The notes below the pieces were generated by a model. The model worked only from the letters and a program-made list of their open reading frames with translations, had not been told where the DNA came from and made no database searches. A stretch of DNA of 11,856 nt, from the NCBI GenBank assembly GCA_023435545.1, contig JAEYRQ010000632.1, forward strand, positions 1 to 11,856. The letters are read 5' to 3'. Position numbers and translations under genes: made by a program. Origin of the DNA: Pseudomonadota bacterium. Its GTDB lineage: Bacteria; Pseudomonadota; Alphaproteobacteria; Rhizobiales; Tepidamorphaceae. Below, one piece after another: positions 6,018 to 11,856 of the stretch (its first letter is position 1; each line of letters opens with the position of its first letter).

Positions 6018-7175
6018 TCACCACGCCGCCCGGTAGATCGCCAGCGCATCCGCTCGGGTCACAGGGCGGGGATTGTTGACCAGCAGCCGGGTCTGCTTGA
6101 TGGCGTCGTCGGCCATCATCTCGAGTGCGTCCTCGGGGATACCGACATCCCGCAGCCTGGGCCGCAGCCCGCAGCGCGTGGACAATTCGGCCAGACGATC
6201 GGCGAATGCCGCGCCCCGCGCCTGCGTTCCGATCTCGGCAAGCTCCGGAAACACGATCGGCGCGATGTCGGCATAGGCCTCGCCGGCCGTTTCCGCGTTG
6301 AAGCGCAGCACATGCGACAGCACCAGCGCGTTCGACAGGCCGTGGGGAATGTGGAAATGCCCACCGATCGGATAGGCGAGCGCGTGCACCGCGGCGACCG
6401 GCGAGTTGGCGAAGGCCTGGCCCGCCAGCATCGAGCCGAGCAGCATGTCGGCGCGCGCCGCCCGGTCCTTGCCGTCATGCACCGCCGTCTCGATCGCAGC
6501 GCCCATCAGCCGCAGCGCCTCGCAGGCGAGCGCCCGTGACACCGGATTGTTGTTGGCGCTCGCCGAGGCATAGGCCTCGATGGCGTGCACCATCGCGTCG
6601 ATCCCGGTAGCGGCCGTCACCGCTGGCGGCAGGCCGACGGTGAGTTCGGGATCGAGCAGCGCGATGTCCGGCAGGAGGACGGGCGAGACCACGCCCATCT
6701 TCTCGTGGGTGCCGGTGGTGACGATCGAGATCGGCGTCACCTCCGACCCCGTCCCCGCGGTGGTCGGCACCAGCATCAGCGGCAGGCGCGGCCCCCTGGC
6801 GTTGCCGACACCGTAGACCTGCGGCAGCTTCTCCTTGCCCACCGCCAGCAGCGCCACCAGCTTGGCGACGTCGAGCGAGGAACCGCCGCCGAAGCCGATC
6901 ACCGCATCGGCCCTGTGGTCGAGCGCGTGCTTCGTCGCAGAATGGATCACGTGCTCCGGCGGATCGGCCTCCACGTCGGAGTAGACCGCGACGTCGAGGT
7001 CCGCATCACGCAGTGCGGCCAGCGCCGGCTCTATCAGTCCGAGCTTCACCAGCCCCGGATCGGTGACGACGAGCACGCGGCGCCAGCCCCTTGCCGCGGC
7101 GAGCGTCCCGATTCGCGAGGACTCGCCCGACCCGAAGACGATGCTGCCGGCGGTGTTGAAGGTGAAAGGCCTCAT
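6018..7175 (-). CDS. Iron-containing alcohol dehydrogenase (group III)
   Basis: The 385-residue protein is of normal length. The N-terminal domain binds NAD(P): FGSGE near 14-18, VLVVTDPG, and GFGGGSSLDVAK at 94-105, with PTTAGTGSEVTP at 137-148. The C-terminal helical domain provides the metal site: D193 and H197 in GIDAMVHAIEAY, H264 in AAVHALAYP and H278 in HIPHGLSNA, matching the Asp and three His ligands of FucO-type enzymes. The fourth conserved histidine of FucO (H267) is Y268 here, which I believe recurs in one subfamily. The enzyme should interconvert an alcohol and its aldehyde in the cytosol. With the succinate-semialdehyde dehydrogenase downstream, 4-hydroxybutyrate is a plausible substrate; this is inference. 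ATG 7175 overlaps the symporter stop in an ATGA, with GGAG nine bases upstream, so translation is coupled to the transporter. Confidence 0.93.
   Translation of the reverse strand: MRPFTFNTAGSIVFGSGESSRIGTLAAARGWRRVLVVTDPGLVKLGLIEPALAALRDADLDVAVYSDVEADPPEHVIHSATKHALDHRADAVIGFGGGSSLDVAKLVALLAVGKEKLPQVYGVGNARGPRLPLMLVPTTAGTGSEVTPISIVTTGTHEKMGVVSPVLLPDIALLDPELTVGLPPAVTAATGIDAMVHAIEAYASASANNNPVSRALACEALRLMGAAIETAVHDGKDRAARADMLLGSMLAGQAFANSPVAAVHALAYPIGGHFHIPHGLSNALVLSHVLRFNAETAGEAYADIAPIVFPELAEIGTQARGAAFADRLAELSTRCGLRPRLRDVGIPEDALEMMADDAIKQTRLLVNNPRPVTRADALAIYRAAW
7172..7175 (-). promoter_or_regulatory. ATGA stop/start overlap (symporter to alcohol dehydrogenase)
   Basis: On the minus strand the TGA of the symporter shares bases with the ATG of the iron alcohol dehydrogenase (ATGA). 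This arrangement commonly gives re-initiation by the same ribosome and ties uptake to the first oxidation step. Confidence 0.75.
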
Positions 7176-9172
7176 GATCCGAAACTCCAGTTGAGCAGGG
7201 TGGCCACGGCGGCGATCAGTACGACGACCCAGAACCAGATCATCACGAGCTTCGTGCCGGCCGCGGGCGGTGGCGGCAGAGTGCGCTCGGCCTTGGTGGC
7301 GAGCTGGATGAATTTCGTCGGCATCGTCGCCATGCCCATGCGATCCGCGAGGAACCACACCAGCAGCACACCGAGCGCCCACCACAGGAACTGCCAGGCC
7401 CACAGCGGCGGGATGGCGAGCGGCCAGGCCTCCAGTCCGCCGGTCGAATTGCCGAACAGCACGTTGCCGATCACCGCCCCCGGACCCAGCGCGAAGAACA
7501 GCCAGGCGATTGCCACCGCCCATGCCACGAGCTTCAGATAGTGGCGGCGGACAGGGAGCACGGCATGGCTCGCCAGGAAGTCGTGGAAGGCCCGGCGCTG
7601 CGATCTCTCTTCCTCGCGCTGGCTGATCAGCGAGATGACGATGACGATGACGATATTGGCGAAGAGGCCCCAGCCGCCGGAATGGATGGTCCACGGCCAC
7701 CGGCCCCAGGGAATCTCCAGCCCGAAGAAGCCGGCGAGCGCGATGCCGAAGTCCTCGGTGAACAAGACGAAGGCCATGCCGGTGACAAGCCCGACGGTCG
7801 CCGCCGGCCTCGTGATCCAGGGGATCCAGCAGATCCCGGCGAGCACCGGCAGCAACTGCAGGCCGAAGCCGAGCGCCAGAGCGCCGAGCGCCACCGCCGC
7901 GCCCGGTGCGAAACTCTGCAGCATCAGCGCGATCAGGATGATCAGGCCGACGCCGATGCGGGCATAGAGCCGCTGGCGTTCCAGATCGAGCTCGGGGTCG
8001 ATGTAGCGGCGGAACACGTCGCGGACGACCAGGGTGCTAGCCGCCGAGGCCGACATCGCCGCGAGCCCCTGCACCGCAGCGACCGCGCAGACGGCGGAAA
8101 TGGCCGCGAACCAGGGCGCACTGTCGGCCAGCATCGAGACGTAGGCACCGACCACGCCGCCGGGCCCGGTCGCCAGTTCGATCGCAGGCTCGCCGAGGAG
8201 ACGCAGGCCGAGCCCCTGCGCGACCGCGAACATCAGCAGCACGCCGCCCATGAGGCCCGCGGAGGCCCATGTCGCCTGCACGCCGAAGCCCTTTGGACTG
8301 CGGCTGGAGAAGGCCAGCACCGAGAACACCGGATTGAGCGACAGCCCCATCAGCGCCAGCCCGAACGACAGGATCATCGCCCCGGTCCAGAGGCTTCCCG
8401 CCGGCGCCTCGACACCAAGGCCCATCGTGTACTGGATGGCGCCGGGTATCCCGAAGTAGGACGCGGTGACGGGCGCGACCTCGCCCTCGGCCGGCGTCGT
8501 GGCGAGGCTCAGCTGGCCGAGACCGGCGGTGAAGGCTCCGAACCCGCCGACGAACCAGTAGGCGTAGAGGCCGAGCAGGACGATGCCCGCCACCATCAAC
8601 ACGCCCTGCAGCGTGCCCACATAGGCCGCCGCCCGCATGCCGCCGAAGGCGACATAGGCGAACACGATCACGGTCATCACCCACATCGCCGTGTGCCGGC
8701 CGACCCAGCCCTCGCTCAGCGAAGCGACGATCGAGCCGGCAACGCCGAGCTGCATCGAGACGAACGGGATCGCGAAGGTGAGCGCAATCACCAGCATCGC
8801 CAGCCGGATCACTTCGCCGCCGAAGTAATGCCCCGCCATCTCACCCGGCGTGACGTAGCCGAAACGCTTGCCGAGCATCCACTGGCGCTTGAGGAAGAAG
8901 GCCGAGCCGAGCCCGATGGTGACTGCTCCGAGGCAGACTTCCGCGAAGGGGAAGCCGTCGCGCAGCACCATGTCGGGAAATCCGAGCGCCATCCAGCCGT
9001 TGAAGGCGAGCGCGGTGCCGGCGGCGACAACGACCCAGGACGGCAGGTTCCGGTCGGCCAGGAAGTAGCTGCGCGGATCGTCCGACAGTCGCGCGCTCGC
9101 AAGCCCCCAGAACAGGCTGAAGGCGCCGTAGAGACCGAGGAAGGCGATGAGCCAGACCGCCGTCTCACTCAA
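7172..9172 (-). CDS. Sodium:solute symporter (SSS family)
   Basis: The protein has about 666 residues and is almost entirely hydrophobic helices, roughly 13-15 by eye. It starts with an outer-facing segment and first helix (TAVWLIAFLGLYGAFSLFWGLAS), followed by the SSS-typical SYFLADRNLPSWVVVAAGTALAFNGWMALGFP. The region AAMSASAASTLVVRDVFRRYIDPELD (about 371-396) corresponds to the helix whose Ser/Thr residues bind sodium in this family. TPGEMAGHYFGG and FAYVAFGGMRAAAYVGTLQGVLM are also characteristic. The C-terminus carries an extra charged loop (EEERSQRR) and a proline run before a last helix. It would bring a small organic substrate into the cell with Na+. TTG 9172 is preferred because GGAG at 9184-9181 sits eight bases upstream; GTG 9181 would touch that site. 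The substrate is unknown; the downstream dehydrogenases suggest a hydroxy- or amino-acid-like compound. Confidence 0.92.
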   Translation of the reverse strand: MSETAVWLIAFLGLYGAFSLFWGLASARLSDDPRSYFLADRNLPSWVVVAAGTALAFNGWMALGFPDMVLRDGFPFAEVCLGAVTIGLGSAFFLKRQWMLGKRFGYVTPGEMAGHYFGGEVIRLAMLVIALTFAIPFVSMQLGVAGSIVASLSEGWVGRHTAMWVMTVIVFAYVAFGGMRAAAYVGTLQGVLMVAGIVLLGLYAYWFVGGFGAFTAGLGQLSLATTPAEGEVAPVTASYFGIPGAIQYTMGLGVEAPAGSLWTGAMILSFGLALMGLSLNPVFSVLAFSSRSPKGFGVQATWASAGLMGGVLLMFAVAQGLGLRLLGEPAIELATGPGGVVGAYVSMLADSAPWFAAISAVCAVAAVQGLAAMSASAASTLVVRDVFRRYIDPELDLERQRLYARIGVGLIILIALMLQSFAPGAAVALGALALGFGLQLLPVLAGICWIPWITRPAATVGLVTGMAFVLFTEDFGIALAGFFGLEIPWGRWPWTIHSGGWGLFANIVIVIVISLISQREEERSQRRAFHDFLASHAVLPVRRHYLKLVAWAVAIAWLFFALGPGAVIGNVLFGNSTGGLEAWPLAIPPLWAWQFLWWALGVLLVWFLADRMGMATMPTKFIQLATKAERTLPPPPAAGTKLVMIWFWVVVLIAAVATLLNWSFGS

Positions 9173-9238
9173 GGCGGCCACTCCGCGTGTGTCCCGGCTC
9201 CTGTGTCGCTGCGCTCGTCATCTGCCGGCGGCCGCCCG

Positions 9239-9673
9239 CTAGTTCCTGTGGATGTGGAACATGGAGAAGGCCCCCTTCAGCCCGAACCGCGTCGCCAGGT
9301 AGACCACGAAGCAGGCGGCCGCGACCGCGAGCCCGAGCAGCCCGGAGAGTGCGTTCGACAGCGTGAAGGCCGGATCGAAGGCCCAGAACACCAGGAAGCT
9401 GAACGCCGCCAGGCCGAACAGCGAGATGCCGGCGGCGATCTCGCCCGACCGGAAGCCCATGCCGTAGATCCGGTTGATGATCAGGTGCGACACGAAGCCG
9501 GCGACGAGGACGAGGTAGCCCGCCGCCGCGACCAGGATATGGTCGGCGCGAAAGCCGGTCGCCACGAGCGCGAGGCTGAACGCGCCGAACAGCCCCCAGC
9601 TCGTCAGCACCGCAAGCCGCTGCTCGGCATCGGTCTCGGCTTCGCTCATACCCTCCCCCGTCGGTGTCGTCAT
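9239..9673 (-). CDS. Small four-helix membrane protein, possible symporter partner
   Basis: I do not recognise a named family. The 144-residue protein has a hydrophilic acidic start (EGMSEAETDAEQR), then four hydrophobic segments at about 23-41 (LTSWGLFGAFSLALVATGF), 46-66 (ILVAAAGYLVLVAGFVSHLI), 79-102 (IAAGISLFGLAAFSFLVFWAF) and 108-126 (LSGLLGLAVAAACFVVYLA). It ends with the charged tail RFGLKGAFSMFHIHRN. It lies 57-66 bases ahead of the symporter gene on the same strand. Several SSS carriers are known to be encoded beside small integral proteins, so a role in assembly or stability is a reasonable guess, no more. The ATG at 9649 (GGGGGAGGG directly upstream, but only two bases away) is an alternative start. 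GGAGG before ATG 9673 is 13 bases away, so neither start is well supported. Confidence 0.75.
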   Translation of the reverse strand: MTTPTGEGMSEAETDAEQRLAVLTSWGLFGAFSLALVATGFRADHILVAAAGYLVLVAGFVSHLIINRIYGMGFRSGEIAAGISLFGLAAFSFLVFWAFDPAFTLSNALSGLLGLAVAAACFVVYLATRFGLKGAFSMFHIHRN

Positions 9674-11543: not shown

Positions 11544-11856
11544 TCATCGCGGCGCCTCCCCCGGCTTCAGGGCCACGGCGAGAAACGCCAGGCCGAATGC
11601 GATGCGATTGATGAAATCGGTGAGGTTGTAGGCGATGGCGAGCCCGCCGGTGTCGACGCCGCCGCCGAAGCTCGAGATGAAGTTGCCGAGTGGATAGATC
11701 GCCCAGCCGATGGTGACGATCAGCCTCAGCCAGAAGTAGCCGCGCTGCAGCCGCGCGTCGTTGCTCTTCGCGACGACCTCGCTCATCTGGCCGAAGAAGG
11801 CTTCGCCCAGGATGTAGAGCCAGCCGACGATGCCGATCAGGAAGGCGAGGGTGGGA
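11544..11856 (-). CDS. Microbial rhodopsin homologue lacking the retinal lysine (partial, 5' end outside window)
   Basis: The last 103 residues (codons from 11855) are visible, covering helices E to G. Helix E reads TLAFLIGIVGWLYILGEAF. Helix F reads LRLIVTIGWAIYPLGNFI, with the pocket residues W51, Y54 and P55 (numbered within the visible part), as in proteorhodopsin GWAIYPxG. Helix G reads AIAYNLTDFINRIAFGLAFLAVA, aligning with proteorhodopsin IYNLADFVNKILFGL. The conserved aspartate D80 is kept, but the Schiff-base lysine four residues later is R84, codon CGC at 11606-11604. No other lysine lies in the visible helices; K30 is in the E-F loop and K97 near the C-terminus. Rhodopsins are seven-helix membrane proteins using covalently bound retinal for pumping or sensing; this one cannot form the normal Schiff base. 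It ends 67 bases before the flotillin gene. ATG 11786 is internal. Confidence 0.9.
   Translation of the reverse strand, partial: PTLAFLIGIVGWLYILGEAFFGQMSEVVAKSNDARLQRGYFWLRLIVTIGWAIYPLGNFISSFGGGVDTGGLAIAYNLTDFINRIAFGLAFLAVALKPGEAPR

Follow-up and report, generated by a model that had tools for sequence, protein, structure and literature searches.

Rhodopsin homologs without the retinal-binding lysine are not new. Lysine-less flotillin-associated rhodopsins (FArhodopsins) have already been published, with arginine among the residues that replace the lysine (PMC10308929). Marine FArhodopsin genomes also encode a canonical proteorhodopsin at another place; the authors could not test this for freshwater ones (PMC10308929). 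Rh-noK of betaproteobacteria is another lysine-less proteobacterial rhodopsin, according to passages in PMC10308929. The haloarchaeal opsin-related proteins of group A also have arginine at the lysine site, and a role other than light reception is proposed for them in the part of PMC4915679 available to us. Among metabolic loci, the closest is blcABC of Agrobacterium, which converts gamma-butyrolactone to 4-hydroxybutyrate and then to succinic semialdehyde (PMC5924552, in the sections available to us).

The window analyzed here, a stretch of 11,856 nucleotides, ends in a FArhodopsin that lacks the lysine. We place the opsin in the published group because of its flotillin neighbor: on the same strand, the flotillin gene (11476-9734) follows the opsin, which ends at 11544. 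The features of the window are:

11855-11544, minus strand: lysine-less flotillin-associated rhodopsin, 3' part (helices E-G; the 5' end lies past the window), PF01036 match
11606-11604, minus strand: Arg codon CGC at the position of the retinal Schiff-base lysine in helix G, read from the sequence
11476-9734, minus strand: flotillin (SPFH and Flot domains), directly 3' of the opsin; PF15975 E=1.7e-33, PF01145 E=3.5e-15
9239..9673, minus strand: 144-aa protein without a Pfam family at E<=0.1; some segments look hydrophobic by eye
7172..9181, minus strand: Na+/solute symporter (SSF); PF00474 E=2.3e-12
6018..7175, minus strand: iron-containing alcohol dehydrogenase (Fe-ADH), its ATG overlapping the symporter stop; PF00465
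4528..5973, minus strand: succinate-semialdehyde dehydrogenase (SSADH); TIGR01780, 668.4 bits against a cut-off of 646.35

Further downstream (4256-2093, minus strand) lies a gene with class III cyclase-like and RsbW-like ATPase domains, with a STAS anti-sigma-antagonist-like gene directly 3' of it. These genes look unrelated to the opsin cluster, because neither has a match near the opsin in the first 26 related loci or in L027 and L028. There is no HAMP/MCP transducer among the scanned window proteins, which cover the downstream side of the opsin, or among the conserved cluster genes of relatives.

The opsin reading frame is open from the window edge over the last 312 bases before it, and reads ...YNLTDFINRIAFGL... 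including helix G. It matches the Pfam family Bac_rhodopsin (PF01036) with E=1.2e-10 and 41.6 bits (cut-off 24.6) over profile positions 129-221 of 224. An earlier reading of this DNA from its letters alone (the sequence-only reading) had claimed that the helix-G lysine that binds retinal in photoactive type-1 rhodopsins is replaced by arginine here, and this is what we find: the codon at 11606-11604 is CGC. The same reading was right that the rest of the pocket is kept, since the Trp, Tyr and Pro of helix F and the Asp of helix G are all retained in the fragment. It also held that a base-call error is unlikely; CGC differs from both AAA and AAG at all three bases, and arginine recurs in 23 of 26 related loci. 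Its caution that the loss of the lysine may not be new in itself was justified, as arginine at this site is already reported in PMC10308929.

The window covers helices E to G only, and our statements about helices A to D, including residue 122, are inferred from relatives. The closest of these, L001, is 81% identical to the window opsin over the fragment, and the model of L001 predicts the seven-helix rhodopsin fold. Scanning genome contigs with the window fragment gave 26 loci, in which the site is occupied by Arg (23), Glu (2) or Lys (1). The codon is CGN in all 22 Arg loci that were read (of 23; L020 was left out). Over ten pairwise comparisons, between pairs of our choice, dN/dS lies between 0.03 and 0.37; for the window against L001 it is 0.26. 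Because of the arginine in 23 of 26 loci and these low ratios we conclude that the window opsin is not decaying, in agreement with the sequence-only reading. One could also ask whether the lysine has merely moved to another helix. We reject this for the relatives: among the 105 Arg-type rows in the listed matches no column in the core is mostly lysine, and the sole column that is (96 of 105) lies where helix B ends or begins, at its edge.

Helix D and the order of events

A second residue, 122 in helix D, is of particular interest. It is numbered as in bacteriorhodopsin, and in rhodopsin structures it lies by the retinal ring. Our alignment has 352 rows, taken from the best 120 of 4604, 2945 and 1378 matches. 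Some proteins are in the table twice (e.g., L001 and P0002), and because of these duplicates and the restriction to the best 120 of each match list, counts from it are not independent. Among these listed matches, with the window set aside for want of helix D, 218 of 220 lysine-less rows have Arg122; the exceptions are P0280 (Gln) and P0131, which is apparently frameshifted. For Arg-type rows with that column in the listed matches the count is 105 of 105. The 128 lysine rows of the listed matches have Glu (88), Gln (23), Gly (14), Arg (2) or Lys (1) instead, and in a sample of the class all 29 canonical loci (L051-L079) have Gly. Lysine-bearing FArhodopsins are not all blocked at 122, as L084 and L085 have Gly and L080-L083 have Ala. 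By eye, Thr216 of P0091 and Glu216 of P0131 look like frameshift artefacts; both are still counted in the 352-row table.

Our tree contains 100 rows, including L001 and excluding the window fragment. It is rooted on 4knf and 7b03, and two trait columns were removed. An earlier tree was rejected since its root lay on very distant rhodopsins (branch length 10), and the proteorhodopsin-rooted tree replaced it. For both, 343 of the 352 rows were thinned at 80% identity; the window fragment, P0091, P0131, P0154, P0160, rows outside 200-300 letters and rows gapped at 216 were dropped from both, and L031, L032, L034, L035, P0224 and P0241 from the second as well. The three proteorhodopsins chosen as outgroup do not form one side of a branch, as 9r22 fell on the other side.

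In the rooted tree PsFAR, L026, L027 and the Arg122 rows form a single clade (support 100/95), with 4knf, 7b03, 9r22 and P0212 outside. Through L001, the opsin thus belongs to the proteorhodopsin family and branches apart from the pumping proteorhodopsins. PsFAR is reportedly also the subject of a 2025 paper, on the protein without retinal. Together with P0280 the Arg122 rows form one clade (100/100), in which two rows that combine lysine with Arg122, P0285 and P0300, are sister to the 79 lysine-less rows (99/98). On this tree, then, closure of the ring site would have come before the loss of the lysine, and that loss would have happened a single time, after residue 122 had become arginine, with P0285 and P0300 as apparent intermediates that precede it. 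The intermediate state rests on these two rows, both from contigs shorter than 1.4 kb. Glutamine at 216 was probably later replaced by Arg, Leu or Glu.

The gene cluster and a proposed light-independent role

What could an opsin without its lysine do for the cell? The genes around it provide the most concrete hints. We compared proteins in stretches of about 9.5-20 kb around 39 lysine-less opsins. Flotillin, an ABC ATPase and both permeases of a CUT2-like importer are found at all 39 loci, and wherever positions were listed the flotillin adjoins the opsin on the same strand. The symporter and the binding protein are each present at 38 of 39, an alpha/beta hydrolase and an SCP2-like protein each at 37, a match to the 144-aa protein at 34, a metallo-lactonase and an IclR regulator each at 33, Fe-ADH at 23, SSADH at 20 and a Zn-ADH at 9. 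The stretches of L001, L019 and L025 stop before the cluster does. Fe-ADH is missing, without a stretch end to excuse it, from L018, L022, L024, L039, L040 and L042-L049. The window itself has the symporter and Fe-ADH that are typical neighbors of FArhodopsins, and relatives have the importer and the hydrolase upstream. The likeness to SCP2 is weak (E 0.02-0.07, below the Pfam cut-off, in 6 of the 11 proteins given, amid other matches at chance level), and the predicted structure of the SCP2-like protein has a pLDDT of 59.

L046-L049 are very divergent lysine-less FArhodopsins with Leu216 and Arg122. They keep the set of flotillin, importer and symporter and are without lactonase, IclR regulator and 144-aa protein. 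The hydrolase of L004 is 78-82% identical to that of lysine-bearing FArhodopsin loci, where the opsin is only 30-40% identical; in L046-L049 the hydrolase identity is 42-47%.

Four of the six lactonases given (L004, L001, L024 and L084) pass the NCBIfam cut-off of the AttM family. The lactonase of L085, truncated where the stretch ends, falls just short (387.5; cut-off 390), and that of L022 is nearer to AhlS and under the AhlS cut-off as well. L084 and L085, which are lysine-bearing FArhodopsin loci, likewise carry a lactonase of AttM type. Lactonase, alcohol dehydrogenase, SSADH and IclR regulator occur together in many relatives, such as L004; the window shows only the two dehydrogenases, and the other two genes would lie past its edge. 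A locus on an Agrobacterium plasmid encodes SSADH, IclR regulator, Fe-ADH and lactonase that are 58, 43, 56 and 62% identical to those of the window, L001, the window and L004, respectively. Judged from enzyme families alone, the cluster enzymes resemble the gamma-butyrolactone (blcABC) pathway, and a substrate of this kind may be inferred. Plasmid CP070278.1, listed as Dysgonomonadaceae, is of near-equal length to the Martelella plasmid NZ_CP066788.1 and gave equal match scores, so it is probably mislabeled.

We lean, with some reserve, toward the view that the opsin is a light-independent membrane subunit of a flotillin-organized uptake system for lactones or hydroxy acids. The lysine-less opsin would no longer use light. 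Flotillin would gather it, together with the symporter and the importer, into a membrane patch, where contact between opsin and transporters is suggested by gene neighborhood alone. The patch would import a compound resembling a lactone or hydroxy acid. Lactonase, alcohol dehydrogenase and SSADH could then convert it to succinate, as Agrobacterium does with gamma-butyrolactone. Arg122 would close the old chromophore cavity, and a charge network of Arg122, Arg216 and the helix-B acid would hold it closed. As a precedent we count E120G, one half of the double mutant H84V/E120G of PsFAR in the title of PDB entry 9r23; this Glu aligns with Arg122 here.

One could also argue that the chromophore site was put to a new use. 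Arg216 and Arg122 might hold a carboxylate, or a lipid-like acid, in the former retinal cavity, and the opsin might then signal or gate transport, a chemoreceptor that we think doubtful but worth discussing. Such binding is at least conceivable: in the retinal-free proteorhodopsin structure 8cnk, decanoate sits with its carboxylate salt-bridged to the Schiff-base lysine (PMC11322631, as far as the source was available), and an arginine could copy this. The cavity residues Trp86, Trp138, Trp182, Tyr185 and Pro186 are invariant in all 105 Arg-type rows of the listed matches. Of the 105 Arg216 rows in the listed matches, 100 also carry an acid on helix B, at residue 56 by L001 numbering; for Gln216 with Arg122 it is 26 of 95. 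Pocket columns, chosen after bacteriorhodopsin, also vary less than other membrane columns in the Arg type, a weak signal at one-sided p=0.03, uncorrected. The same comparison is similarly weak for the Gln type (p=0.05) and gives p=0.23 for lysine-bearing FArhodopsins. For the selection on pocket residues that the sequence-only reading wanted checked, this is a weak sign in the Arg type, and the FArhodopsins that kept the lysine show no such conservation, which speaks against a receptor. So do the facts that Arg122 may itself fill the cavity, that sister groups have Gln, Leu or Glu at 216 and have not kept the charge, and that none of the conserved cluster genes found is a signaling gene.

A narrower version, a light-independent receptor or gate of rhodopsin fold for a small carboxylic acid, in which Arg122 and Arg216 stand in for the ring site and the Schiff-base lysine and hold a lactone-derived hydroxy acid or something similar, and the protein controls uptake by the flotillin-organized symporter and ABC importer, seems to us a shade less probable still. 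If true, it would be a prokaryotic type-1 opsin that acts like a chemical receptor. Light-independent sensing, as the sequence-only reading proposed, is a possible role.

Light-related genes in the host genomes

Could the opsin still respond to light? If it held retinal or another carotenoid product non-covalently, as the sequence-only reading suggested, one would look for genes that make the chromophore. The aromatic frame of the pocket is kept, and there are a few such genes. DNA of the blh family occurs in one of the 39 lysine-less genomes (G018); it is the C-terminal half of the gene (profile 158-267 of 267), in open frame, and a contig end is not the cause of its shortness. RPE65-family oxygenases are present in three of 39. 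A full-length heliorhodopsin is encoded in G001, the genome bin of the closest relative (contig 115, 13383-14093, in L095; E=1.2e-89), so that retinal may be present there; no heliorhodopsin was found in the other 38 lysine-less genomes. The 17.9-kb heliorhodopsin contig has 70.2% G+C compared with 66.5% for the opsin contig, a difference that does not settle whether it belongs, and the gene may be contamination. Scavenged retinal is conceivable as well.

The evidence on the other side is stronger. Arg122 sits at the site of the retinal ring in all 105 Arg-type rows of the listed matches, and Asp85, the proton acceptor, has become Gly or Ala in 100 of 105 aligned Arg-type rows of the listed matches. 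In E. coli, retinal binding was not seen for a related rhodopsin with the lysine intact, according to the part of the mSystems paper available to us. The search for blh suggested by the sequence-only reading yielded the half gene in G018 and no match in the other 38 genomes. Absence from a single genome proves little, because only 21 of 34 genomes with lysine rhodopsins have blh. These 34 come from a sample of 385 genomes of the class, 36 of which have a rhodopsin match; G022 (lysine-less and searched before) and G654 (below the cut-off) were left out, and all those kept have lysine rhodopsins. Another comparison comes from the family of Hoeflea alexandrii, where 31 of 394 genomes have a type-1 rhodopsin. 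Four have lysine rhodopsins of other kinds, with blh adjoining in 4 of 4, and 27 have a lysine-less FArhodopsin, with blh in 0 of 27 (Fisher p=3e-5). With arginine in the ring site and blh in one of 39 genomes, non-covalent binding of retinal is unsupported, and a still light-responsive opsin is improbable. A carotenoid ligand other than retinal is conceivable.

Even less probable is a mixed complex in which the opsin modulates a true rhodopsin, as has been proposed for marine FArhodopsins and Rh-noK. Two genomes of the class sample with lysine-bearing FArhodopsins, G666 and G744, do have a canonical rhodopsin and blh, and G001 has its heliorhodopsin. However, each of the 39 lysine-less genomes encodes a single type-1 rhodopsin, heliorhodopsin is missing from 38 of them, and G592, G686 and G764, with lysine-bearing FArhodopsins, also have one type-1 rhodopsin each. 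The second, lysine-containing rhodopsin for which the sequence-only reading advised a search is thus not there, at least not of type 1, in any of the 39 genomes, nor is the canonical proteorhodopsin found elsewhere in marine genomes. With one type-1 rhodopsin per lysine-less genome, pairing with a true type-1 rhodopsin is unsupported. Among the first 26 genomes this applies to the 25 lysine-less ones; G026, with lysine-bearing FArhodopsins, has two.

Several genomes with lysine rhodopsins deserve mention in their own right. Both rhodopsins of G026 (L026 and L027, in a 1.4-Mb genome) are lysine-bearing and FArhodopsin-like, and canonical rhodopsin and blh were not found there. L081, L082 and L083 (in G592, G686 and G764, respectively) have Ala122 with Val at the neighboring blocking site, so that their pocket is perhaps open; blh was not found in these three genomes. 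L035 (G047) is a lysine rhodopsin with Asn85 beside a low-scoring blh-family match. G426 and G558 (L087 and L088) are small genomes that have lysine rhodopsins with His82 and no blh match.

A decaying pseudogene or an assembly error, for which one could cite the truncation of the opsin by the window edge, is rejected, given the open frame, the arginine in 23 of 26 loci and the dN/dS of 0.26 against L001.

The sequence-only reading had held that the protein was retained for another role. What stands of this is a relative of proteorhodopsin under selection (dN/dS 0.03-0.37), with an invariant frame of Trp, Tyr and Pro and no Schiff base; retinal binding and pairing with a true type-1 rhodopsin are unsupported. 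Our preferred reading remains that of a subunit in an uptake system.

Comparison with known systems

The lysine-less FArhodopsins of cultured Rhizobiaceae and Roseobacteraceae could be useful for finding out what FArhodopsins do. Most light-related confounders are removed, because these genomes lack a further type-1 rhodopsin and, for the most part, blh. The lactone and hydroxy-acid enzymes of the cluster provide a first concrete list of substrates. More generally, the tree suggests how a photoreceptor fold may come to do without its pigment, with closure of the ring site as the first step and a single, later loss of the lysine as the second.

Of the 16 haloarchaeal group A proteins, 15 have a chemotaxis transducer next to them, and the group clusters with sensory opsins (in the available part of PMC4915679). 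Our opsin belongs to the proteorhodopsin family and has flotillin and transporters as neighbors; no adjacent HAMP/MCP transducer was found among the scanned window proteins and the conserved cluster genes of relatives. Rh-noK is related to xanthorhodopsin and lies in tandem with a functional rhodopsin (passages in PMC10308929), whereas the 39 genomes here have no second type-1 rhodopsin. In PsFAR (PDB 9r21) the lysine is retained and the equivalent of residue 122 is Glu; the Arg type has arginine at both sites.

Agrobacterium blcABC/attKLM shares with our cluster an AttM lactonase, alcohol and semialdehyde dehydrogenases and a separate repressor (PMC5924552, in the sections available to us). 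The FArhodopsin cluster goes beyond it with importer, symporter, flotillin, opsin, hydrolase and SCP2-like protein, and its substrate is a candidate only.

The closest match is the freshwater lysine-less branch of FArhodopsins (PMC10308929), which is also a relative of proteorhodopsin, forms a clade of its own and adjoins flotillin. The published cluster likewise contains a sodium symporter, Fe-ADH, an alpha/beta hydrolase and a sterol-carrier-like gene (PMC10308929). Unlike there, the hosts here are Rhizobiaceae, Kaistiaceae, Devosiaceae, Roseobacteraceae, Rhodovibrionaceae and others, a second type-1 rhodopsin is absent, and lactonase, SSADH and IclR regulator are part of the cluster. The main text of PMC10308929 contains none of the words lactonase, butyrolactone, semialdehyde and Rhizobi. 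Our literature search found no paper that joins rhodopsin, flotillin and N-acyl homoserine lactonase, and no work on FArhodopsins after 2023. Hence, the loss of the lysine is not new, and the order of events and the link to lactones appear to be. What this analysis adds to the published FArhodopsins is the order of events, the lactone module and the finding that light-related genes are nearly absent.
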